In this document: positions 1,298-33,598 of the stretch, one piece after another | Layout: every line of letters begins with the position of its first letter | How positions within the stretch are numbered: the stretch's first letter is position 1 | Assembly: GCA_003246895.1 (NCBI GenBank) | Contig: QKCL01000057.1 | Location: 1-47,837, forward strand | Direction of reading: 5' to 3' | Source: Spirochaetota bacterium | GTDB taxonomy: Bacteria; Spirochaetota; UBA4802; UBA5550 | Length of the DNA: 47,837 nt | Translations under genes and position numbers: made by a program | The notes under the pieces: model-generated | Seen by the model: the letters and a program-made list of their open reading frames with translations, nothing else | Database searches by the model: none | Told to the model about the DNA's origin: nothing

Positions 1298-1789
1298 TCA
1301 CTTCATGAAGCGGAATGTTGAGACAATTGTTTCGGCATCCCTGACAAATATGTAGAGGTCTATGGGAACAGATCTGCTGAAGTCTGCAAAGTAAACCTTG
1401 CCGTCCTTTTTACCCACAATCCTGCCGTTAAGATGAAACCCTTCGGGCCTGCCGTAGTAGGTTTTTTCATAGTATTCCCACTCCTTTCCGGAAAAAATAT
1501 ATATCCTGAAAAGAACAGCCGATTTTGCAGGAGCATCAACAGGCTGCCAGTCCCTGGAACGGGTAGGCAGAATAAAACTGATTCCGTATATTTCCAGATT
1601 TTCATCAATGAGCAGATGCCTGTCCGAAACACTGTACTTGCTCCAGGTTTCGGGGAACTTCATGGAAAAACCGAACCTCCTGTTCTCATAGTTCAGCTTT
1701 TCAAGAAGAAGCTCCCGGTCAGTCTTTGCGCAGCCTGCCGTGAAAAGTGTTATTGTTAAAATAATAAAAATTATACTCTTCAGGTTCAT
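1298..1789 (-). CDS. Small lipoprotein, unknown function
   Basis: 163 residues. The N-terminus is a lipoprotein signal with the lipobox FTAGC, so the mature protein should be lipid-anchored in an envelope membrane. I do not recognise the domain. It lies downstream of the sigma/anti-sigma/VWA operon but is separated from it by a strong hairpin terminator. Its start codon sits inside a 13-bp perfect inverted repeat (1778-1810) and has no Shine-Dalgarno. Expression would therefore need either readthrough plus opening of the hairpin or a promoter I cannot see. The gene is real (signal peptide plus lipobox); the function is open. Confidence 0.75.
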   Translation of the reverse strand: MNLKSIIFIILTITLFTAGCAKTDRELLLEKLNYENRRFGFSMKFPETWSKYSVSDRHLLIDENLEIYGISFILPTRSRDWQPVDAPAKSAVLFRIYIFSGKEWEYYEKTYYGRPEGFHLNGRIVGKKDGKVYFADFSRSVPIDLYIFVRDAETIVSTFRFMK

Positions 1790-1810
1790 TATATAAGAAT
1801 GAACCTGAAG
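1778..1810 (-). promoter_or_regulatory. Perfect 13-bp hairpin containing the lipoprotein start codon
   Basis: CTTCAGGTTCATT and its exact reverse complement are separated by 7 nt. Read on the minus strand, the second arm begins with AATG, so the ATG at 1789 would be base-paired in the mRNA. This is what is seen; a role in start-codon sequestration is inference. Confidence 0.6.
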
Positions 1811-8332: not shown

Positions 8333-9634
8333 CTAAAAATACAGTTTCACAAATGAATATACCATGGGTGCGGATTCATATGTTTCAAAATCGGAAACCC
8401 TTTCCCTGCTTCCGGTCTTTGCTCCCATTACCCCAAGCGACACCTCTGCATTGTCGGAAACGCTGTATTTAAAGGAAGCGCTGGCAAAGAGTCCTCTGCC
8501 TTCAAAATCATAGATCAGAAAAATATCGGCCCTGAGAATAGAGATTATATCATATCCTGCGTTTAATGAAAGATAATACCTGTTGTATGTGAGGATGCGG
8601 TTTGAGAGAGTATAAAAGCTGCTTCCATTATACCCATCTGACATGAATGACGAAACAGCGTCCCTGAGGTCTTTATCTTCATTAATACAGACCTCATTAT
8701 AGAAGAATTCAGAAAGGAGATACAAACCCTTTGAAAATGTATACTCATAGCCTGTGCCTGCCTGCCAGAAACCCTTTTCCGATTCATCGGGCTTTGAATA
8801 GAGAGCTACTGCCGTGAGCTGGCCGCCGAAAAGAACAAATACGAAATCTGCCCCGGCCACCCTCCGCTTTGAAACATAACCTGCCAGAAGCGCCGCATCT
8901 GCAGATTCGCTGAGAAACTTTATCCTGACAGCGTAGTTGCTGCTCTTCATATCCGTATCTCTGATTTCATCGTTTTCCCTGAGGGGATTATATACTGCCG
9001 ATACCTCCAGGAGATTCTCCATGAACAGGTCCGCCCTGAATGCATCAATACCCTCCTGGTCTTCAGCTCCTTCAACAGATGTAGGAGAAACCGGATTAAG
9101 AAGGTCAAGGGGATTCCAGAGCCTGCTGCTTCCAAAACGCACCTGCTGCCTCCCTGCAGTGAACGTAAAAGCTCCTGCCGAGAACTTTCCGTAGGCCCTG
9201 TGAAATCCGGAACTGTAATACATGGGCGGGTCTGTTCTGTCCACTCCGCTTTTCCAGATTCTGTTGTAATCTCCCGCCTGCCACTCACTTTCAAATTCTC
9301 TGGAATCTGTATAGTTAGACCAGACCGCTTCGCTGTCGTAGTCCATATGGAATACAAAACTGCTGCCGTATGTGACCTCGGGAGAAAGCCGCAGCCGGTT
9401 AAGGTCAAGAAACATGTTTTTATCAGTTGAGGCTTCACTTCCCGTACCGTAATAGTCGCTGTTTCTCCGGTACATGAACATGTTCTTGTAGTGCCCCTTG
9501 AACGAAAAATTCCATCCTGAACTCTCAAAGGGGTCTTCCGCTTCACCTGAAAAGGCCGGACCGCTGTAAAAAAAAACAAAAAGCAGAACTGTGCAGAATA
9601 TTCTTTCCCATGAAAAGATAATACCAATGATCAT
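8333..9634 (-). CDS. Outer-membrane beta-barrel protein, last gene of an ABC export operon
   Basis: 433 residues. A signal peptide ends near GPAFSGEA. The rest alternates polar and aromatic residues in porin-like strands and ends with a C-terminal strand terminating in Phe (VYSFVKLYF), typical of proteins inserted by the BAM machinery. The protein resembles alginate-export or DUF1302-type barrels in style (FTAGRQQVRFGSSRLWNPLD), but I cannot fix the family. It overlaps the ATPase gene by 4 nt (ATGA), so it belongs to the TetR - LolA-like - permease - permease - ATPase operon. Its likely role is the outer-membrane exit or acceptor of that transport route (inference). Confidence 0.78.
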   Translation of the reverse strand: MIIGIIFSWERIFCTVLLFVFFYSGPAFSGEAEDPFESSGWNFSFKGHYKNMFMYRRNSDYYGTGSEASTDKNMFLDLNRLRLSPEVTYGSSFVFHMDYDSEAVWSNYTDSREFESEWQAGDYNRIWKSGVDRTDPPMYYSSGFHRAYGKFSAGAFTFTAGRQQVRFGSSRLWNPLDLLNPVSPTSVEGAEDQEGIDAFRADLFMENLLEVSAVYNPLRENDEIRDTDMKSSNYAVRIKFLSESADAALLAGYVSKRRVAGADFVFVLFGGQLTAVALYSKPDESEKGFWQAGTGYEYTFSKGLYLLSEFFYNEVCINEDKDLRDAVSSFMSDGYNGSSFYTLSNRILTYNRYYLSLNAGYDIISILRADIFLIYDFEGRGLFASASFKYSVSDNAEVSLGVMGAKTGSRERVSDFETYESAPMVYSFVKLYF

Positions 9635-10302
9635 AGAGTGATTCTACCGTCTGTGATCCTGATGAGCCTTTCTGCCCTGTCCATGACCATGGGGTCGTGA
9701 GTTGAAAAGAGAAAGGTTGTTCCCCTCTCATGGTTCAGGTTCTTCATGAGATCGAGGAGTGATGAACCTGTCTTCTGGTCAAGGTTTGCAGTGGGTTCAT
9801 CGGCCAGTACAATTTCAGGGCCCGAAACAATGGCCCTTGCCACCGCCACACGCTGCTGCTGGCCGCCCGAAAGCTGTGCCGGCCTGCGGTGTGACTCCTT
9901 CTCAAGACCAACATCCCTAAGCATTGCAAGGGCCTTCTCCCTCCGCTCATGTTTCTCAACACCCTGAAGAAGCATGACATACTCTACGTTCTCGACTGCC
10001 GAAAGAACAGGTATGAGATTATAGGCCTGGAATATGAACCCGATCCTGTTCAGCCTGATCTTTGAAAGTTCACTTTCACTCAGGCCCTTCATGGTCTGTC
10101 CGGAAATAATTACATCTCCTTCATCCGGCCTGTCAATACCGCCCATGACATTGAGAAGTGTAGTCTTTCCCGAACCTGAAGGCCCTGCAATGGCCGAGAA
10201 CTCTCCGCTTTCAATGTCAAGGTCGATTCCCCTCAGGGCATGAACCTCCTGTCCGTTTGACTGGTATGTTTTATGAAGGTTTTTTATTTCAATTACTTTC
10301 AT
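9631..10302 (-). CDS. ABC transporter ATPase, LolD/MacB type
   Basis: 223 residues from the chosen start. Walker A is GPSGSGKTT, the signature is LSGGQQQRVAVARA, Walker B is IVLADEPTANLD, and the switch histidine is in FSTHDP. Length and motifs fit the LolD/MacB/FtsE group, which powers mechanotransmission permeases rather than channel-type transporters. The start used is the ATG at 10302, with AAGGAG 5 nt upstream; a frame six codons longer is less likely. The two permeases it should energise lie directly upstream, and the barrel gene overlaps its stop. A short CCCC-ttac-GGGG hairpin lies in the 47-nt gap before it and could tune ATPase expression. Confidence 0.93.
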   Translation of the reverse strand: MKVIEIKNLHKTYQSNGQEVHALRGIDLDIESGEFSAIAGPSGSGKTTLLNVMGGIDRPDEGDVIISGQTMKGLSESELSKIRLNRIGFIFQAYNLIPVLSAVENVEYVMLLQGVEKHERREKALAMLRDVGLEKESHRRPAQLSGGQQQRVAVARAIVSGPEIVLADEPTANLDQKTGSSLLDLMKNLNHERGTTFLFSTHDPMVMDRAERLIRITDGRITL

Positions 10303-10349
10303 TCTTACTCCTTTTCCCATAGTTCCCCTTACGGGGGGATTATGGGTTT

Positions 10350-11582
10350 CTAAATAAAATGAAGGGCCTTAAGGGGCCTGATTCTCGCAGCCTTCACTGC
10401 CGGATAAAGGGCTGCAATGACTGCAGTACATGACACAATCACCATGGATGCAAAAAAATCCTTCACAGTTACTACAGGATAAATAACAGTTCCCGAGCCC
10501 AGGATTGACATTGTCTCGGAAAAAAAAGACAGGTCAAGTCCCGTGACCGTGAGAACACCCAGAACAAGCCCGCCGGCGATCATGCCTGCAGCCATCCCCA
10601 GAAGTCCAAGATTAAGGGACTCAATAAGTATCATGATAAAAATATTCAGCGGCTTCGTGCCCAGGCATTTCATTACACCGATTTCATGGAAGCGCTCCAT
10701 TATGGCCATGACCATGGTGTTGGCCACTGAAAATACAATTGTCGTAAACACTATCGCAAAAAAAACATACATCATTGAATCATATAGCCTGATTGCGCTG
10801 ACAATGGACGGGGCCATCTCCTGCCATGTTTTCACCACGACATCAGTGCTTTTCAGCCACGGCTCCACTCTTTTTTTTATTCTGTAGGAGAGGTCCCGGT
10901 TTTCTGCCTTGATCGTAATCTCGGATATACGGCTTCCGATGCCCGTTATTCTCTGAAGATTTTTCAGTCCCGTGAACACCACGTGCTTGTCAAAATCCCC
11001 CACCGGCGATGAGAAGATCCCCTTCACAGTAAGAGCTTCGCCTGTCATCTCTCCATGAACATCCTGCAGTATCAGAACAAGCCTGTCTCCAACCACAAGG
11101 TCAAGTTTCTCCGCTGTTCTCTTTGATATCAGAATATCTCTGGCCTCTGAGCTTTTCAGGAAGTCACTGCCGTTTTCTTTCGAAGTGTATTCATAAATTC
11201 CGGAAACGGTTCTCTCCCTTTCCGGGTCTATTCCCGCAATCATGACTCCCCTTGAACTTTCACTTGACCTTATCATGGCCTGCACCTTGACCCGCGGAGC
11301 CCATGAGAACCCCTTTGAGGATTTCATTCTTTCCATGAAATCCTCATCCGGTACAAAACTGTATGAGGGTTTGATATTGTCCAGGAAGCCCTTTCTGTGA
11401 ACAGAGACATGTCCCAGTGATGTGCTGATTGTATTGTCCACCATCTGATAATTCATGCCCTTTGATATCCCCATCATGAAAAACATCATGAGTATGCCAA
11501 GGCCTATTGAAGTAATAACAACCAGAGACCTTCTCCTGTTACGCCAGACATTTCTCCAGCTAAGCAAAAATATCATCTTCAT
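10350..11582 (-). CDS. FtsX/MacB-family ABC permease (LolE-like), copy 2
   Basis: 410 residues with the family architecture: one N-terminal transmembrane helix (about 20-40), a periplasmic MacB-PCD-like domain to about 265, then three C-terminal helices (near 272-292, 320-345 and 370-395) of the FtsX domain. The conserved N-terminal RNVWRNRRRSLVV and the cytoplasmic loop EIGVMKCLGTKPLNIF are typical. It is paralogous to the gene just upstream (12-nt gap), so the transporter is probably a heterodimer like LolCE. LolCE and MacB pull lipoproteins or small molecules from the periplasmic face of the inner membrane; the substrate here is not known. Confidence 0.9.
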   Translation of the reverse strand: MKMIFLLSWRNVWRNRRRSLVVITSIGLGILMMFFMMGISKGMNYQMVDNTISTSLGHVSVHRKGFLDNIKPSYSFVPDEDFMERMKSSKGFSWAPRVKVQAMIRSSESSRGVMIAGIDPERERTVSGIYEYTSKENGSDFLKSSEARDILISKRTAEKLDLVVGDRLVLILQDVHGEMTGEALTVKGIFSSPVGDFDKHVVFTGLKNLQRITGIGSRISEITIKAENRDLSYRIKKRVEPWLKSTDVVVKTWQEMAPSIVSAIRLYDSMMYVFFAIVFTTIVFSVANTMVMAIMERFHEIGVMKCLGTKPLNIFIMILIESLNLGLLGMAAGMIAGGLVLGVLTVTGLDLSFFSETMSILGSGTVIYPVVTVKDFFASMVIVSCTAVIAALYPAVKAARIRPLKALHFI

Positions 11583-11594
11583 TAAATCAGCCTC

Positions 11595-12833
11595 CTAGAG
11601 TTCCCGCATGGACGTTACAGGGTCAAGACGCGATGCCCGCCTGGCCGGAAAGTAACTGAATACCCCGGCCAGCAAAAATACAATTACCGAAGCCCTTATG
11701 AAATCTGAAATTTTTATCTTTGCATAGTACACAAGTGTCGATACCTGATACATCTCCATCTCGCTCTCATATTCCGAAAAATCCATTGGGTAGACTGTGA
11801 AATACCAGCTCAGTCCATAGCCTAGAATCATCCCCAGGGCTATGCCCATTGCAGAGACAAAAAAGGACTCAGTCAGTATCATTCTGAAGATGCGTTCAGG
11901 GCCTGTACCGATTGAAAGCATGATACCGAACTCACGCGTCCTTTCATAGACAGACATCTGTATTGTATTTAAAATTCCAAAGGCCACAATTAGATAGAGT
12001 ATCATTACAAATATGTGTCCGCTGGCCCTGTCAAGGGCAATGAACTGCAGAATTTCCGGGTTGAGCCTGTCCCATGACATTACCTCGAATGTGTCATCCG
12101 TTACAGACCTTATACGTGCGGCGAGCCCCGCCACACTGTCTATGTCACTGGCCCTTATGGCATATGCAGTGACATGGCCCATCATTGAAAAAACTTCCCT
12201 TGCGGCATCCAGTGAAATTATTCCAAGGGTTCTGTTGTACTGAACATTTGGAGACTTGAAGATTCCCCTTACCATGAAATTTTTTGCTGCAATGGAACCG
12301 TCGAATCCCTGGGAAACAAGAGAGACCTCATCACCCACACCCGCGTCAAGAACCCTGGCAAGGGCCCTGCCCAGTACTATTCCGTTTTTATCAGAAGGAG
12401 AAATAAACTTTCCGCCGGGAAGGACATATCTGTCCATGGTGATGATATCCCTCTCCCTTTCCGGATCAATTCCAAGTATTTCACACCCCGCAGAGGAATC
12501 CCTGTGTGTAAGGAGGCCACCTGTTGAGATTCTCTTTGAAATTCCCTTAACGTTTTTCATGGAGGATATTTTATTGAAGAGTTCGTTATCGTCCATGAAC
12601 GCATACTCAAGGGTCATGTTCTCCCAGAATCCCTTCTCGTGGACCTGAATATGGCCTGTTCTGGGCGCAACACTGTCCTCAATCATCTGGGCATAACCGC
12701 CATTCTGGAGTGAACGCATGAACAGTATGAGTGCCGTGCCCGCCGCAATAGTCATGAATGTGAGAAATGACCTGCGCTTGTTTCTCCAGACATTTCTCCA
12801 TGCCAGCATCACTGTCATTTTATAGCCGGACAT
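11595..12833 (-). CDS. FtsX/MacB-family ABC permease (LolC-like), copy 1
   Basis: 412 residues. The N-terminal helix follows the motif AWRNVWRNKRRSFLTF. A large periplasmic domain then leads to three C-terminal helices with the conserved loop REFGIMLSIGTGPERIF. It shares the same motif order and length with the next gene, so the two are paralogues from an old duplication. It begins 1 nt after the stop of the LolA-like gene, implying translational coupling between carrier and permease. Its ATPase partner lies two genes downstream. Confidence 0.9.
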   Translation of the reverse strand: MSGYKMTVMLAWRNVWRNKRRSFLTFMTIAAGTALILFMRSLQNGGYAQMIEDSVAPRTGHIQVHEKGFWENMTLEYAFMDDNELFNKISSMKNVKGISKRISTGGLLTHRDSSAGCEILGIDPERERDIITMDRYVLPGGKFISPSDKNGIVLGRALARVLDAGVGDEVSLVSQGFDGSIAAKNFMVRGIFKSPNVQYNRTLGIISLDAAREVFSMMGHVTAYAIRASDIDSVAGLAARIRSVTDDTFEVMSWDRLNPEILQFIALDRASGHIFVMILYLIVAFGILNTIQMSVYERTREFGIMLSIGTGPERIFRMILTESFFVSAMGIALGMILGYGLSWYFTVYPMDFSEYESEMEMYQVSTLVYYAKIKISDFIRASVIVFLLAGVFSYFPARRASRLDPVTSMREL

Positions 12834-13580
12834 CTATCTCCCCTTGAGATTCTGTATTGTAAAAACCCTATCCGGAATGGCGACGTTAAAACGGATAAAC
12901 TTTATCCTCAGCATGGTGTACCTGTCCTTCTTTGAAAGTGTCTCCATTTTGTAGACTGCCGGTATTACCCTGCCGCCCATTTCAGTGAATTCCGACATTG
13001 TCATGGTCTTTTTCAGGACATTGTGCTGGTTGTAGAATTCCTCTTTCACCGGAAGATAATCATGCTTCCTTGCATAGTATACTATTTTACCCCATACCAC
13101 TGCTGATTCCGGTTTAGGCACAAGAGTAATCCTGTAGCAGTCGTGTCCCGCAATATTTTCAGACCCGGAAAGTGTATGGGTGTAGTCCTTTGTAATACTC
13201 GATTCCTTTACAATGTCATCATTGGTAAAATCAGAACCCATCCATGACTGAAGCATCATGGAAGGAGATATCTTTATGGCCTTCTGCAGTCCCGGAATGA
13301 AATGCCTCATCTCATGACCTATAAGAAGAAACCTGTTGCCAGCGTCTTTCTTGGGAGATGTAATTACGGAGAAACTCTTTCTCCCGTCCCTGACGTTCCA
13401 GCTCTTCATCTCCATTGTACGGGTCCATTTTCTTGTCTTGATTGTTACCTCATATACTGCAGTCTGTGTATTCCCCCTGACAGCATCCTCAGATTTTTTT
13501 ATAATTTCCCCTGCAGTCATTGAGAAAAGCGGATGGGCAATGATCATTGTTATAATTACTGAAAATATTCTAAAGGTCAT
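12834..13580 (-). CDS. Periplasmic LolA-like outer-membrane lipoprotein-sorting protein
   Basis: 248 residues. A signal peptide (about 1-20) is followed by a LolA/LolB-type beta sheet. Features of this family (often annotated outer membrane lipoprotein-sorting protein) are visible: early EIIKKSEDAVRG, then basic-aromatic strands (TIKTRKWTRTMEMKSW), SFSVITSPKKDAGNRFL and QSWMGSDFTNDDIV. Relatives often sit beside RND/MMPL or ABC exporters of hydrophobic molecules. Here it is coupled on both sides: its ATG overlaps the TetR stop by 4 nt, and its stop is 1 nt from the first permease. Inferred role: periplasmic shuttle taking a lipid-like cargo from the permeases to the barrel. Confidence 0.87.
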   Translation of the reverse strand: MTFRIFSVIITMIIAHPLFSMTAGEIIKKSEDAVRGNTQTAVYEVTIKTRKWTRTMEMKSWNVRDGRKSFSVITSPKKDAGNRFLLIGHEMRHFIPGLQKAIKISPSMMLQSWMGSDFTNDDIVKESSITKDYTHTLSGSENIAGHDCYRITLVPKPESAVVWGKIVYYARKHDYLPVKEEFYNQHNVLKKTMTMSEFTEMGGRVIPAVYKMETLSKKDRYTMLRIKFIRFNVAIPDRVFTIQNLKGR

Positions 13581-14215
13581 TCCTGATCCCCCTGTACTTT
13601 TTCTGCTGATATACTCTGAAAAAACATCTCAAGAAAACTCTCAATTCCCTTCATCATATCTATCCTTGAAGGGTTCAGGGCGCAGTGAAGCCCCACTCCG
13701 TCCAGGGACGCAACAAGGAGCATTGACTTTTCAGAAATGTCCAGGTCACTGCGGAAAACTCCTTCATTAACCCCCCTGCGGATAATTCTTTCAAACATGC
13801 CCTTCATGGAATCCACAATACGGTTGAAAATTTCACCAAGTTCAGGAACCTTCCCCTTCAGTATCAGTGAAAAAACTTCGGTGAATATTATGGTCATTTT
13901 CTTAAGTGACATGAGGTCATTATCAAAGAACCTGCATATTTCATCAATTGCAGACCTTATAAGGTCCCTTTCATCTGAAAGAAGCTCCTCAAGTGCCTGA
14001 ACCCTCTGCTCGGTCTGGAGCCAGAGAAAATTCATGACATAGAGAAGAATCTCCTCCTTTGAATCAAAATACTGGTAAACCAGCCCCTTTGAAATTCCCA
14101 CTGCTGATGCGATATCGATTATGCGTGAATTTTCAAAACCCTTTTCCATGAAGACTTCCAGTGCCCCGAAGGCAATCTGGTTCTGCTTCTCTTCCCTGTT
14201 AATTATCTTCGGCAT
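13577..14215 (-). CDS. TetR-family repressor of the LolA-like/ABC export operon
   Basis: 212 residues from the chosen start. An N-terminal TetR helix-turn-helix is seen at about 25-45 (IIDIASAVGISKGLVYQYFDSKEEIL is in two pieces: IASAVGISKGLVYQYF and DSKEEIL). The C-terminal half is a ligand-binding helical domain. The longer frame starting at 14335 would run through the promoter, so ATG 14215 is preferred: it begins MPKIINREEKQ, a normal TetR start. There is no Shine-Dalgarno; the -10 TATATT ends 6 nt before the ATG, predicting a leaderless mRNA. First gene of the operon, with a perfect operator in its own promoter, so it is almost certainly autoregulated. Confidence 0.92.
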   Translation of the reverse strand: MPKIINREEKQNQIAFGALEVFMEKGFENSRIIDIASAVGISKGLVYQYFDSKEEILLYVMNFLWLQTEQRVQALEELLSDERDLIRSAIDEICRFFDNDLMSLKKMTIIFTEVFSLILKGKVPELGEIFNRIVDSMKGMFERIIRRGVNEGVFRSDLDISEKSMLLVASLDGVGLHCALNPSRIDMMKGIESFLEMFFQSISAEKVQGDQE

Positions 14216-14221
14216 AAAACA

Positions 14222-14254
14222 AATATACCTTTTATTGACCCATTGGTCAATAAA
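14222..14254 (-). promoter_or_regulatory. Autoregulated promoter with TetR operator (minus strand)
   Basis: On the minus strand: -35 TTGACC (14250-14245), 17-bp spacer, -10 TATATT (14227-14222), then 6 nt to the ATG at 14215. A perfect inverted repeat TTTATTGACC-4 nt-GGTCAATAAA occupies 14231-14254, covering the -35 and most of the spacer. This is a classical position for repressor binding. Confidence 0.82.
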
Positions 14255-14387
14255 AAAATAATGTAACCAGAATTTCATACAGTTTACAGAATTTAATGTA
14301 TTAAAAAAGAGGGTATTTTTTATAAATACTTTCAAAAAGGGGTTGTAAGCATATCAGGCTTGGCCAACAATCCCTCAGGATTAAAAA

Positions 14388-14402
14388 AAATGATTATCAT
14401 TT
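14388..14402. promoter_or_regulatory. Perfect 7-1-7 palindrome upstream of htpX
   Basis: AAATGAT-t-ATCATTT, 16 bp before the htpX ATG and next to its GGAGAGG ribosome site. The 7-1-7 shape recalls Fur-type boxes, but the bases match only partly. Regulator unknown. Confidence 0.4.
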
Positions 14403-14418
14403 AATCGGAGAGGAAAAA

Positions 14419-20294: not shown

Positions 20295-20505
20295 AAAAAC
20301 CCCTGTTTAAATTCTATAACTCCATTAAAAGAAATCTGAATTCAATGGATTAAAATTCAATCATTTTTCTCCTTATAACCGCGCAGAATCCTTTTTTATC
20401 AAATGTAAATAATTAACCGTAAACAGACTAATACATATATTGTTCAGATAACTATATTTCAAAATCACCGGGATCTAAAAAAAGAAATAGAAGGCACAAA
20501 AAAAC

Positions 20506-20541
20506 TTGACCTTAAATGAATGTTCATTTATTTATGCCCCC
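20506..20541 (+). promoter_or_regulatory. TetR autoregulated promoter with palindromic operator
   Basis: -35 TTGACC (20506-20511), 17-bp spacer, weak -10 TATTTA (20529-20534), then 7 nt to ATG 20542. The palindrome TAAATGAA-tg-TTCATTTA (20513-20530) fills the spacer. The same core recurs before the next operon at 21128. Confidence 0.72.
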
Positions 20542-21114
20542 ATGAGAATGAAAGATGAAATAAAACAAAGAGCTCTCATCAGCGCAACAATCGCGACTGT
20601 AAATGAATCCGGCCTTGCATCAAGTTCTGTGTCAAAAATAGCAAAAAAGGCAGGTCTCTCACCGGCTACACTTTATATCTATTACAAGGACAAGGAGGAT
20701 CTTCTGGCTTCTATCTACATGGATGTAAAAATTGAAATGAGCAATTATATTATCAACGAAATAACAGAAGAGTCTTCTCTAAAAAAAATATTCTCACAAT
20801 TATGGAAGGCCATGTTTAAGTATATTTCATGCCACAGGGAAGAATTCATGTTTATTGAACAGTTTTCATCCTCCCCATGCTGTGACATTGTAAATAAAAA
20901 AGAAATGGAAAAGCATTTTGAACCAATAACCGGGCTGATAAAAGACGGAATTAAAAAGGGTGAAATAAAAAATGTAGACATGGGCCTTATCAAACTTTTT
21001 CTTTTTTCACCGCTCATGGTTCTTGCAAAGGATATGATAAAGCAGGGGGGAGAGTTCAAAGAAAAACTGATAAAAGAAGCATTCGAACTATCATGGGATT
21101 CAATAAAGTTATAA
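20542..21114 (+). CDS. TetR-family regulator of the MBL-lipoprotein operon
   Basis: 190 residues from ATG 20542 (MRMKDEIKQ). The helix-turn-helix is SSVSKIAKKAGLSPATLYIYYKDKED at about residues 29-54, followed by a helical ligand domain. The longer frame starts with TTG at 20506, which is really the -35 box, so it is not used. There is no Shine-Dalgarno; the -10 ends 7 nt before the ATG, so a leaderless transcript is predicted. The operator palindrome lies in its own promoter and again in the 59-bp gap before the next gene, so it should repress both itself and the MBL-fold operon. The inducer is unknown. Confidence 0.9.
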   Translation: MRMKDEIKQRALISATIATVNESGLASSSVSKIAKKAGLSPATLYIYYKDKEDLLASIYMDVKIEMSNYIINEITEESSLKKIFSQLWKAMFKYISCHREEFMFIEQFSSSPCCDIVNKKEMEKHFEPITGLIKDGIKKGEIKNVDMGLIKLFLFSPLMVLAKDMIKQGGEFKEKLIKEAFELSWDSIKL

Positions 21115-21127
21115 AAATTTTGTCAAG

Positions 21128-21153
21128 TTTATAAATGAATATTCATTTATAAA
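21128..21153 (+). promoter_or_regulatory. 26-bp perfect palindrome before the MBL-lipoprotein operon
   Basis: Arms TTTATAAATGAAT / ATTCATTTATAAA with no spacer. It contains the same core TAAATGAA-NN-TTCATTTA found at 20513-20530. A -10-like TATAAA (21148-21153) overlaps the right arm, at the same distance from the core as in the TetR promoter. An AGGAG ribosome site follows at 21163. Confidence 0.85.
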
Positions 21154-21173
21154 CCAAAAATTAGGAGCCAAAC

Positions 21174-22358
21174 ATGAAAATAAAAAAACGGCACATCACT
21201 GCAGGTGTTCTGTCAATAATCTCTGCATTGCTAATAACTGCCTGTTCAACTCTGGCTGACATAGAATACATGGAGGGTACAAGGAAAACTGTAATGAAAT
21301 CAGATAACTATAAAAATGGAAAATTTATCAATACAATAGGTGAAATTGAAATGCTCACCTCTGGCACATACATGGGCCTTATAAAAAAAATGATTTTCGG
21401 CAGGGAGGAGAGAGAACCTGAAAGACTCCTGAAACCGCTCATTGTGGATGCAGATTCAATTACAGGTGGAAAACCCGGTGAACTGAAAGTAACCTGGCTT
21501 GGTCACTCATCCACCATAATTGAAATAGAAGGAAAGATAATTCTCACAGACCCAGTCTTCTCAAAGCGCACCTCACCTCTGTCTTTCATTGGGCCGAAAC
21601 GGTATCACAGCAGTCCTGTCATCAAACCTGAAAGATTAAAAAAAATAGACCTGGTAATAATTTCACACGATCATTATGACCACCTGGACCTGGAAACAGT
21701 AAAAAAAATTCACATTACTGCCTCACATTTTGTTGTACCCCTTGGAGTAGGATCCTATTTAAAAAAATGTGGTGTCAGCACAGACAAGATAACCGAAATG
21801 AACTGGTGGGACGAAAAGGTCCTGCCCGGGGGATTAAAAATTGCAGCAACCCCCTCCCAGCATTTTTCAGGCAGAAGCCTTTTTAACAGAAACAGAACTC
21901 TCTGGGCATCATGGGTAATTGAAGGCAGCAAAAGAAAAATATTTTTCAGCGGGGATTCAGGATATACTTCTGAGTTCAGAAAAATCGGAAATAAATACGG
22001 GCCCTTTGATATGACGCTAATTGAAAACGGTCAGTATAATGAACAGTGGCAAAATGTTCATATGCTCCCTGAAGAATCCCTGCAATGCCATATTGACCTG
22101 AAGGGCAGAGTCATGATCCCGGTTCACTGGGCCGCATATAATCTCTCTGTACATGACTGGTTTGAGCCTGTTGAAAGACTTCTTAAGGCAGGAGCTCATA
22201 ACCCGAAAAGTGTGAAAATTTCAACACCTGCCATAGGGGAAAAGGTCGTTTACGGAAAAAATATACCCTCTGCACGGTGGTGGGATGCTTTCAAATCCGG
22301 ACACCGGAACATTGCTGAAAAGAACAGTAATTTAAAGCCGGCCGAGAATGAAGGGTAA
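21174..22358 (+). CDS. Metallo-beta-lactamase-fold lipoprotein (NAPE-PLD/UlaG-like)
   Basis: 394 residues, with lipobox ITAC (Cys24), so an envelope protein. The fold motifs are GHSSTIIEIEGKIILTDPVF, the zinc motif SHDHYDHLD, then PSQHFSGRS, FFSGDSGYT and MIPVHWAAYN. These match the NAPE-hydrolysing phospholipase D-like branch of MBL proteins. Known members hydrolyse lipid phosphodiesters or lactones, and a lipid-anchored enzyme suits a lipid substrate, but this is inference. AGGAG lies 6 nt before the ATG. First gene of a TetR-regulated operon with two downstream genes. Confidence 0.92.
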   Translation: MKIKKRHITAGVLSIISALLITACSTLADIEYMEGTRKTVMKSDNYKNGKFINTIGEIEMLTSGTYMGLIKKMIFGREEREPERLLKPLIVDADSITGGKPGELKVTWLGHSSTIIEIEGKIILTDPVFSKRTSPLSFIGPKRYHSSPVIKPERLKKIDLVIISHDHYDHLDLETVKKIHITASHFVVPLGVGSYLKKCGVSTDKITEMNWWDEKVLPGGLKIAATPSQHFSGRSLFNRNRTLWASWVIEGSKRKIFFSGDSGYTSEFRKIGNKYGPFDMTLIENGQYNEQWQNVHMLPEESLQCHIDLKGRVMIPVHWAAYNLSVHDWFEPVERLLKAGAHNPKSVKISTPAIGEKVVYGKNIPSARWWDAFKSGHRNIAEKNSNLKPAENEG

Positions 22359-31033: not shown

Positions 31034-31432
31034 TCAGGACAACCATGATGGTTTCACCTCAACTGGTAAACCGTCATTTTCAGTAAATTGATTTAAACTG
31101 TTTGCCTGTGTCTGAATACAGATAAATTTTAAAGTAGAATTATCATCAGCCTTGAAGCACCGTGCCGCAGCAGGATCAATGCGGATAATATTATCCTTTT
31201 CAATACAGAATTCCTCTCCATCAAGAAACAGCTGCCCTTTACCTTCCAAAACAATATACACTTCTTCATTCATCTTGTGTGCATGAACAAAAGGTACAGA
31301 AACACCCGCAGGTAATTCATTAACTGAAATTTCTGAACCTGTCAGTGCAAGTCTGTCATGAAGCGTATCACGTCCGGCTTCCTTGATATTCTCAAGTAGA
31401 GAGAGTCTGTAATTTTTTCCTGTTTTTTCCAT
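31034..31432 (-). CDS. Small cupin-domain protein in a MarR regulon
   Basis: 132 residues. The cupin motif is seen: FVHAHKMNEEVYIVLEGKG (metal His/His/Glu) and later GEEFCIEKDNIIRIDPAAARCFKA. Such small cupins act as metal-dependent dioxygenases, isomerases or sensors. AGGAG is 6 nt before the ATG. The promoter has the same inverted repeat as the MarR gene just upstream, so it is under the same regulator (see findings). Confidence 0.88.
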   Translation of the reverse strand: MEKTGKNYRLSLLENIKEAGRDTLHDRLALTGSEISVNELPAGVSVPFVHAHKMNEEVYIVLEGKGQLFLDGEEFCIEKDNIIRIDPAAARCFKADDNSTLKFICIQTQANSLNQFTENDGLPVEVKPSWLS

Positions 31433-31453
31433 TTTGTACTCCTGTTGTTTTAT

Positions 31454-31483
31454 ATTAAGTTCGTAGCCGAACTATTTGTGCAA
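31454..31483 (-). promoter_or_regulatory. Cupin promoter with MarR operator
   Basis: Minus strand -35 TTGCAC (31483-31478), 18-nt spacer, -10 CTTAAT (31459-31454). AGTTCG-tagc-CGAACT (31458-31473) lies in the spacer. Confidence 0.65.
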
Positions 31484-31490
31484 AAAAATA

Positions 31491-31928
31491 TCAGATCAAA
31501 TTCTCTTCAATCCGCCCCAACAATTTTACGAGACATTCCCTGTCTTCATCAGACATATCACCATAAACTTTCTGTATCAGCAGATCTGAAATCTCTTCAA
31601 AATCAGATTTGATAGACCATCCCTTTTCAGTAAGTCCGATATGAAAAGACCGGCCATCCTCCAGGCATGCCTGCCTGTATATATAGCCGTACCGCTCAAG
31701 GGTTTTAACCATGCCTGTGACAGTTGATTTGGCCCGGCCTGATTTTTTCACCAAAGACACTATGGGCACCGGCCCCTGCTGCTGAAAGAGGAAAGAAAAA
31801 ACCGATCCATGGGCAGGCATTACCCCTTCAATACCTCGTGAAATTAATTCACGATCGATCAGAAGATTTGCAGCCTCCCGAATCTTCGAGATCTGATCAA
31901 TTATGTTTCCAGTCAGATTTTTTTTCAT
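31491..31928 (-). CDS. MarR-family repressor
   Basis: 145 residues from ATG 31928 (MKKNLTGN). The wHTH region VSLVKKSGRAKSTVTGMVKTLERYGYIYRQ is shown as SGRAKSTVTGMVKTLERYGY; the wing is QACLEDGRSFHIGLTEKG. The longer frame starts with TTG inside the -35 box, so it is not used. No ribosome site; the -10 ends 7 nt before the ATG, predicting a leaderless mRNA. The palindrome in its promoter also occurs in the cupin promoter, giving a two-gene regulon. Likely effector: a small aromatic or oxidant, as in MarR relatives (inference). Confidence 0.92.
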   Translation of the reverse strand: MKKNLTGNIIDQISKIREAANLLIDRELISRGIEGVMPAHGSVFSFLFQQQGPVPIVSLVKKSGRAKSTVTGMVKTLERYGYIYRQACLEDGRSFHIGLTEKGWSIKSDFEEISDLLIQKVYGDMSDEDRECLVKLLGRIEENLI

Positions 31929-31934
31929 GAAGCA

Positions 31935-31964
31935 CATATAGTTCGCATGCGAACTATATGTCAA
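31935..31964 (-). promoter_or_regulatory. MarR autoregulated promoter with 26-bp perfect palindrome
   Basis: Minus strand -35 TTGACA (31964-31959), 17-bp spacer, -10 CTATAT (31941-31936). The palindrome 31935-31960 has arms CATATAGTTCGCA / TGCGAACTATATG and fills the spacer. Confidence 0.9.
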
Positions 31965-32068: not shown

Positions 32069-33598
32069 TTATAGTGGTATATTTCCGTGCTTACGTTTAG
32101 GCCTGTTAACTTCCTTGTTCTCAAGCATTCTCAGTGCGGCAATAAGTCTCGGCCTGGTCTCTTTAGGCTCGATAACCTGGTCGATAAACCCTCTTTCTGC
32201 CGCTTTATAAGGAGTAGAAAACTCGTCTATATACTCCTGAGTCTTTTTCTCTATTTCCGGGTCTCCACGGAAAATAATTTCAGCAGCTCCGGAACCACCC
32301 ATTACGGCAATCTCGGCTGTGGGCCATGCAAGAACCATGTCCGCTTTCAGATGCTTGGAACACATTCCGATATAGGCACCGCCATATGCCTTACGTGTTA
32401 CAAGTGTCAGTTTAGGCACAGTTGCCTCGGCATAGGCATAAAGGATCTTTGCACCGTGACGGATGATGCCATTGTGCTCCTGCTGAACTCCCGGCAAAAA
32501 TCCGGGGACATCCACTATAGTCAGGAGAGGAATATTGAATGCATCACAGAAACGGATAAAACGGGCTGTTTTATCTGATGAGTCTATATCGAGACATCCT
32601 GCCATTACCTTTGGCTGTGTTGCGATTATACCGATCGTGCTGCCGTCCATACGGGCATAACCGATAACTACATTTTGTGCAAAATAGGGCTGTACTTCGT
32701 AAAACTCTCCATTATCTACAACATGCTTAATGACATCTTTAATATCATATGGCTTTGCAGGATTATCAGTCACAACAGTATTGAGCTCTTCATCCATTCT
32801 GTCCGCGCTGTCGCCTGTGTCATAGAAAGGAGGTTTCTCCTTATTGTTGTCTGGAAGGAATCCAAGGAGATAACGGATATGCTCAAGGCACTGCTCGTCA
32901 GTATCTGCAATAAAATGCGCCACACCGGATACTGTATTATGGGTTGAGGCTCCACCAAGAGTTTCGGCGTCAACATCCTCGTTTGTTACAGTCTTGATAA
33001 CCTGGGGTCCTGTAATGAACATCTGGCTTGTCTTGTTAACCATAAAAATAAAGTCTGTTATGGCAGGAGAGTATACCGCTCCTCCCGCACATGGCCCCAT
33101 GATGACAGAGATCTGGGGAATTACGCCTGAGGCCATGGTGTTGTTGTAGAAGATATCACCGAAGCCGCCCAGTGCATCGGGCCCCTCCTGAATTCTCGCC
33201 CCGCCTGAATCATTGATGCCGATAATTGGCGCGCCTGCCTGCAGAGCAAGCTCCTGAACCTTTACGATTTTAGCAGCATGCATCTCCCCCAGAGAACCGC
33301 CGGATACGGTAAAATCCTGTGCGTATACAAATACCTGACGCCCGTTGATTTGGCCGTAACCGGTAACGACACCCTCACCGGGATTTTCTTTCTTTTCCAT
33401 ACCAAAATTTGTACATCGGTGTTTAACAAACTGATCCAGCTCTTCGAATGTGCCCGGATCGAAAAGTTTCCCGATACGTTCTCTGGCAGTGAGTTTGCCG
33501 TTTTTATGCTGTTTATCGATACCATTTTGGCCGCCACCAAGTTTGATAACTTCCTGGCGTTCTTTTAAATCCTGAATTCTTTCTTTGACTGTAGACAT
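32069..33598 (-). CDS. Acyl-CoA carboxyltransferase subunit (MmdA/PccB-like)
   Basis: 509 residues, full length. Two crotonase-like halves are seen: N-terminal TARERIGKLFDPGTFEE, DFTVSGGSLGEMHAAKI, INDSGGARIQEG; C-terminal IVDVPGFLPGVQQEHNGIIRHGAKILYAYAEA (quoted as VPGFLPGVQQEHNGIIRHG), VTRKAYGGAYIGM and AVMGGSGAAEIIF. This family moves carboxyl groups between biotin and acyl-CoA in propionyl-CoA carboxylase or methylmalonyl-CoA decarboxylase. The biotin-carrier and other subunits are not in the window, so the partner complex must be encoded elsewhere. GGAGGAG precedes the ATG. A palindrome at 33673-33690 may regulate it. Confidence 0.95.
   Translation of the reverse strand: MSTVKERIQDLKERQEVIKLGGGQNGIDKQHKNGKLTARERIGKLFDPGTFEELDQFVKHRCTNFGMEKKENPGEGVVTGYGQINGRQVFVYAQDFTVSGGSLGEMHAAKIVKVQELALQAGAPIIGINDSGGARIQEGPDALGGFGDIFYNNTMASGVIPQISVIMGPCAGGAVYSPAITDFIFMVNKTSQMFITGPQVIKTVTNEDVDAETLGGASTHNTVSGVAHFIADTDEQCLEHIRYLLGFLPDNNKEKPPFYDTGDSADRMDEELNTVVTDNPAKPYDIKDVIKHVVDNGEFYEVQPYFAQNVVIGYARMDGSTIGIIATQPKVMAGCLDIDSSDKTARFIRFCDAFNIPLLTIVDVPGFLPGVQQEHNGIIRHGAKILYAYAEATVPKLTLVTRKAYGGAYIGMCSKHLKADMVLAWPTAEIAVMGGSGAAEIIFRGDPEIEKKTQEYIDEFSTPYKAAERGFIDQVIEPKETRPRLIAALRMLENKEVNRPKRKHGNIPL

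Follow-up and report, generated by a model that had tools for sequence, protein, structure and literature searches.

Three repressor genes in the window (the whole 47,837-nt stretch of DNA analysed here) share a promoter layout in which TTGAC(C/A) lies 35–36 nt 5′ of the ATG, a dyad lies in or over the promoter spacer and no well-placed Shine–Dalgarno (SD) sequence precedes the start codon. The explanation that we favor, and consider likely on the sequence evidence below, is that these genes encode autorepressed, probably leaderless repressors that head small operons with SD-led effectors. The first-pass annotation had reported a shared layout for two TetR genes and one MarR gene, and we found its hexamers, spacers and distances exactly as listed: TTGACC-17-TATATT-6-ATG (site 1, 14215, minus strand), TTGACC-17-TATTTA-7-ATG (site 2, 20542, plus strand) and TTGACA-17-CTATAT-7-ATG (site 3, 31928, minus strand). 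Several of its details needed revision. It had placed a palindrome inside each 17-bp spacer; a dyad is indeed present at every site, but it covers the −35 at site 1, enters the −10 at site 2 and spans the −35 end through the −10 at site 3. Among its −10 calls, TATATT at site 1 stands, whereas TATTTA at site 2 is weak and CTATAT at site 3 is better read as TATATG. Its statement that SD sequences are missing is fair overall, in that none occurs at normal spacing before any of the three repressors, as expected of leaderless genes, although site 1 has AAAGGT 11 nt 5′ of the ATG.

The site 1 gene encodes a 212-aa TetR-family repressor (13577–14215, minus strand, ATG at 14215) whose TetR_N domain (PF00440) scores 49.1 bits against a curated cut-off of 24. 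Its −35, TTGACC (14245–14250, minus strand), and its −10, TATATT (14222–14227, minus strand), which ends 6 nt 5′ of the ATG, together give a promoter match of 10/12. The −35 hexamer lies within the dyad TTTTATTGACCAATGGGTCAATAAAA (14230–14255), which consists of perfect 11-nt arms, TTTTATTGACC-AATG-GGTCAATAAAA, and is a putative autooperator over the −35 and the greater part of the spacer. The AAAGGT element is too distant from the ATG for an SD and lies 5′ of the predicted transcription start. No second copy of the dyad was found in the window. The genes 3′ of tetR form a putative operon (8333–13580, minus strand) comprising a LolA-like gene that has an ATGA overlap with tetR and an imperfect SD (12834–13580), two FtsX/MacB permeases (11595–12833 and 10350–11582), an ABC ATPase (9631–10320) and a 433-aa protein without a Pfam match (8333–9634). 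A perfect, Fur-box-like dyad, AAATGATTATCATTT, occurs at 14386–14405, just 5′ of the SD of an M48-type peptidase gene (14419, plus strand) that is divergent from site 1.

The site 2 repressor, P0002, is a 190-aa TetR-family protein with TetR_N and TetR_HI_0893_C domains (20542–21114, plus strand; PF00440 score of 41.8 bits, curated cut-off 24). TTGACC at 20506–20511 and TATTTA at 20529–20534 (both plus strand) serve as its predicted −35 and −10; the latter, 7 nt 5′ of the ATG, agrees with TATAAT at only 3/6 positions, and the scanner called no consensus promoter here at its threshold. The putative operator is TAAATGAATGTTCATTTA (20513–20530), with the dyad TAAATGAA-TG-TTCATTTA. A second putative copy, GTTTATAAATGAATATTCATTTATAAAC, lies in the intergenic region 3′ of the repressor (21127–21154), and its dyad at 21133–21148 has zero mismatches to the promoter-dyad motif. 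It is followed by an AGGAG SD (21163–21167, plus strand) and the gene for a metallo-beta-lactamase-fold effector (Lactamase_B_2; 21174–22358, plus strand). Because the scanner, at its threshold, gave no consensus promoter in this intergenic region either, the second operator may act instead as an auxiliary or roadblock site.

At site 3, the repressor P0003 is a 145-aa MarR-family protein (31491–31928, minus strand; PF01047 score of 41.4 bits, curated cut-off 24.6) preceded by TTGACA at 31959–31964 (minus strand). We prefer TATATG (31935–31940, minus strand; 18-bp spacer, 6 nt to the ATG) as the −10 over the earlier CTATAT (31936–31941): it agrees with TATAAT at 4/6 rather than 2/6 positions and aligns with the TATATT of a homologue. 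The putative operator is a perfect 28-bp palindrome, ACATATAGTTCGCATGCGAACTATATGT (31934–31961), and a second putative copy, TAGTTCGGCTACGAACT, is found in the intergenic region that follows the repressor (31457–31474; expected 0.00; 0/100 shuffles). An AGGAG SD (31439–31443, minus strand) then leads a cupin-domain effector (Cupin_2; 31034–31432, minus strand). Near this site, a carboxyltransferase-like protein (32069–33598, minus strand) has its nearest named relatives in Selenomonadaceae (71%) and Sporomusaceae (68%), followed by mixed phyla, which suggests horizontal transfer.

Compared with dinucleotide shuffles, the dyads at sites 1 and 3 were matched in 0/300 and that at site 2 had P=0.03. 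Start codons were assigned from domain position and alignment, with simple gene calling. The ATGs chosen by the first-pass annotation are likely correct because the N-termini align and because, at site 1, translation from the upstream in-frame ATGs would run through the promoter. At its N-terminus, P0002 aligns without a gap with a TetR homologue in genome G014, whose own ATG lies 35 nt after TTGAC, and P0003 and its homologues start within a few residues of one another (MKKNLTGNII... versus MNKDHII...). Counting any of the first three ATGs, roughly 68% of host genes show a 4-nt match to an SD, compared with 16% for shuffled upstream sequence. Elsewhere in the window, a 29-nt dyad, TCAGGTTCATTCTTATATAATGAACCTGA (~1780–1810, minus strand), spans the start codon of a 163-aa open reading frame without a Pfam match (1298–1789); it could be an operator or a start-hiding RNA hairpin.

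To place these genes in their genomic context, we scanned the host genome (G000; 3.57 Mb, 95 contigs, ~96% complete), whose contig C12 corresponds to the window. When promoters were sought under relaxed settings (5/6 and 3/6), a modest excess appeared at a 6–7-nt gap among all other genes, and we therefore adopted a stricter rule, TTGAC at exactly −35/−36 relative to an ATG lying 5′ of the domain. Applied to all 13 TetR and 8 MarR host genes, and to a background of 832 non-TetR/MarR genes from stretches sampling ~1.08 Mb of the 3.57-Mb genome (~30%), the strict rule selected 6/21 and 11/832, respectively (Fisher p=1.1e-6). The difference persists when the three window genes are removed (3/18 TetR/MarR, p=0.0025); the remaining matches are a TetR gene at C1:13287 and MarR genes at C1:32477 and C32:2309. 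The 11 matches in the background include one response regulator and one Fur-family gene followed by a peroxiredoxin. The latter (L113:14703–15842; C1:34703) has leaderless spacing, and its SD-led peroxiredoxin comes 99 nt later, a PerR-like pair. Among other host regulator families, the layout was absent from five GntR and five HTH_3 genes and present in one ArsR gene (L251, contig C62), TTGACA-16-TATATT-6-ATG with an ArsR-like dyad, ATATGAATATATGTTCATAT, which extends the same design to a further family.

The layout recurs beyond the host. With the rule fixed before its application and neighbouring genes as controls, a fresh sample of TetR genes from other genomes of the phylum gave 4/40 matches against 1/406 (p=2.6e-4). 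A −10 stands at the predicted place in three of the four matches (TATAAT, TATAAT and TATATT), and the sole control match has none there. Two other samples gave 3/30 TetR genes from relatives and 3/26 TetR genes across the phylum. None of 29 top-scoring MarR genes of relatives had the layout, which marks the design as a minority one: pooled, with the window excluded, the counts are 13/143 versus 12/1238 (p=1.6e-7), a recurrent layout carried by about one in ten such regulators compared with about one in 100 genes. The enrichment among repressors that the first-pass annotation expected from such a scan is present in both host and phylum, and the spacing is far rarer in the other genes counted. 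That consensus-like hexamers in an AT-rich genome produced the layout by chance seems highly improbable to us. Single hexamers are frequent and a match like that of site 2 is weak, but the enrichment in independent samples, the conserved register and the pairing of operators described below all speak against chance.

The register of promoter and start codon is kept in homologues from other genera. The closest TetR to site 2, the G014 protein (30% identity), reads TTGACA-ATGAATGAACATTCATT-TATTCT-6-ATG. Among MarR homologues of site 3 that share 31–37% identity with it, TTGACA (invariant across six aligned sequences), the dyad and the 6–7 nt to the start are all kept in L084, L087, L091 and L092 (ATG starts) and in L089 (GTG start), and the letters of the dyad vary (TTTGATATCAAA, TTAGACGTCTAA and AGTTCGCATGCGAACT) while the register stays. 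L090, like L089, has a GTG start, which is less well tolerated by leaderless initiation. In four MarR homologues (L085, L086, L088 and L109), the dyad abuts the start codon and the spacing is different. The GGTGAT before the GTG of L085 and L109 may act as an SD, in which case operator and ribosome-binding site could overlap.

The shifted dyads of L085, L088 and L109 fit a different account, which accepts the promoters as genuine and autorepressed but puts the transcription start further 5′, yielding short, SD-less leaders that would be translated by way of A/U-rich, unstructured starts. The same account gains from an alternative promoter at site 3, TTTACA-18-TATAGT (31982–31953, match 10/12), which would give a leader of ~18 nt, and from site 2, where the −10 is poor and TTAACC-17-TATATT occurs upstream (20413–20441). 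We nevertheless judge short leaders rather unlikely: across independent families and genera, the distance of TTGAC from the start codon stays at 35–36 nt, with other positions at background, and the best −10 elements (TATAAT and TATATT) sit at the leaderless position. The conserved register in other genera thus supports, as likely, the leaderless mRNAs that the first-pass annotation had proposed.

Each of the seven layout-bearing host genes (six TetR/MarR genes and the Fur-family gene) is followed on its own strand by a gene that begins −4 to +99 nt after the repressor, and 6/7 of these next genes have a clear AGGAG-like SD; at the window sites, the downstream genes are all codirectional with their repressors. 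A second copy of the promoter dyad lies between repressor and next gene not only at sites 2 and 3 but also at the C32 MarR gene, in most layout-bearing homologues (L053, L084, L087, L089, L090, L091 and L092) and in the unrelated TetR operons L334 and L350; no second operator was found at site 1, L015 or L310. Across 19 operons, the promoter dyad resembles the intergenic region of its own operon more closely than those in other operons, and the observed sum was reached in 0/20,000 permutations, a test that mutual homology among some MarR entries makes conservative rather than liberal. Because promoter and intergenic dyads co-vary, they are very probably the operators of the adjacent repressor. 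This duplication, together with the co-variation, is the strongest evidence that sequence offers for autorepression, and the earlier proposal of autorepression gains support from the dyads that sites 2 and 3 repeat ahead of the effector gene and from co-variation across homologues.

We propose the following mechanism for autorepressed, leaderless repressors. A sigma-70-type promoter would drive each repressor gene. Because 6–7 nt separate the end of its −10 from the ATG, the transcript is expected to have its 5′ end on the AUG or no more than ~2 nt away. A repressor dimer bound to the dyad over the −35, spacer and −10 would block RNA polymerase, and a ligand would free the repressor from the dyad and so reopen the promoter. 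The leaderless repressor mRNA would be read by 70S ribosomes without an SD, whereas the next gene (the ABC-export operon, the metallo-beta-lactamase-fold protein or the cupin) would use its own SD or translational coupling. Read-through would supply the effector, to which a second promoter, controlled in the same way, may contribute at loci that carry a second operator. An SD together with a second operator copy would, at sites 2 and 3, yield effector in larger amount from the same switch, and leaderlessness would lower the yield, and hence the dosage, of the repressor.

Whether the spacing itself serves this end bears on a further alternative, in which it is a by-product of compact promoters whose operator overlaps the promoter close to the gene, and leaderlessness does not itself help to set the amount of repressor. 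This alternative is quite conceivable, if short of probable. The host scan placed 19 and 12 non-regulator genes at gaps of 6–7 nt, against ~8, a small excess which shows that genes other than repressors can have leaderless spacing too. In Caulobacter, moreover, leaderless and leadered mRNAs are translated equally well (PMC4117421), and a low repressor yield is therefore not guaranteed. A spacer operator does not, however, force the ATG to +1, and intergenic copies of the same operators precede SD-led genes that have room for a leader. The most far-reaching extension of our model is that leaderless initiation is a selected design rule in the phylum for autorepressors of unrelated families (TetR, MarR, ArsR and Fur), with one operator used twice, in the promoter of the leaderless repressor and before the SD-led effector, so as to fix a low-repressor, high-effector ratio. 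We advance this idea tentatively and consider it somewhat doubtful.

Leaderless repressors have so far been known as single cases, and a sequence rule (TTGAC 35–36 nt before an ATG, a dyad over the promoter and another ahead of an SD-led gene) identifies them in large numbers. Such a rule predicts the operators and likely targets of uncharacterised repressors, and with it the long-standing idea of leaderlessness as a means of limiting repressor dosage can be tested directly across many independent operons.

The closest known system is the acuR-acuI-dddL operon of Rhodobacter sphaeroides, for which each step of the design has been demonstrated experimentally and in which 5′ RACE placed the transcription start at the AUG, operator mutations were analysed and the TetR-family repressor AcuR is translated less than the downstream genes (PMC3017554). 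Like the window sites, it has its repressor, of the TetR family as at sites 1 and 2, first, a −35 ~35 nt before the AUG, an inverted-repeat operator (putative in the window) over the promoter and no SD; the mRNA start at the AUG and the weaker translation of the repressor, established there by experiment, are predicted here from sequence. The two differ in that acuR has a single promoter and inactive intergenic regions, whereas a second putative operator precedes the effector at sites 2 and 3. The idea that leaderlessness keeps repressor levels low is thus backed in AcuR and contradicted as a general rule by Caulobacter. In the similar nreAXY operon of Mesorhizobium, the CsoR/RcnR-family repressor NreA has its dyad operator in the −35/−10 spacer, is leaderless by 5′ RACE and comes first with effectors after it (PMC12724321), but NreA belongs to a family other than TetR or MarR and responds to metal. 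Repressor mRNAs that begin at the AUG are further known from Tn1721 tetR and lambda cI (cited in PMC3017554 and PMC9938897), although tetR is divergent from tetA, cI is part of a phage switch and neither is a repressor-first operon with an SD-led effector. The MerR-type repressor CvkR of CRISPR-associated transposons is expressed from a leaderless mRNA as well (PMC9938897); it differs in being divergent from cas12k, which is itself leaderless too. More broadly, a survey of 953 bacterial genomes found leaderless genes to be commoner in the transcription category (PMC3160421). The design itself is therefore known, by experiment elsewhere, from AcuR and NreA, and the window genes would be further cases of it; our additions are the finding that several repressor families in a single genome share it, the comparison with other genes in each of two samples and the pairing of putative operators ahead of SD-led effectors.
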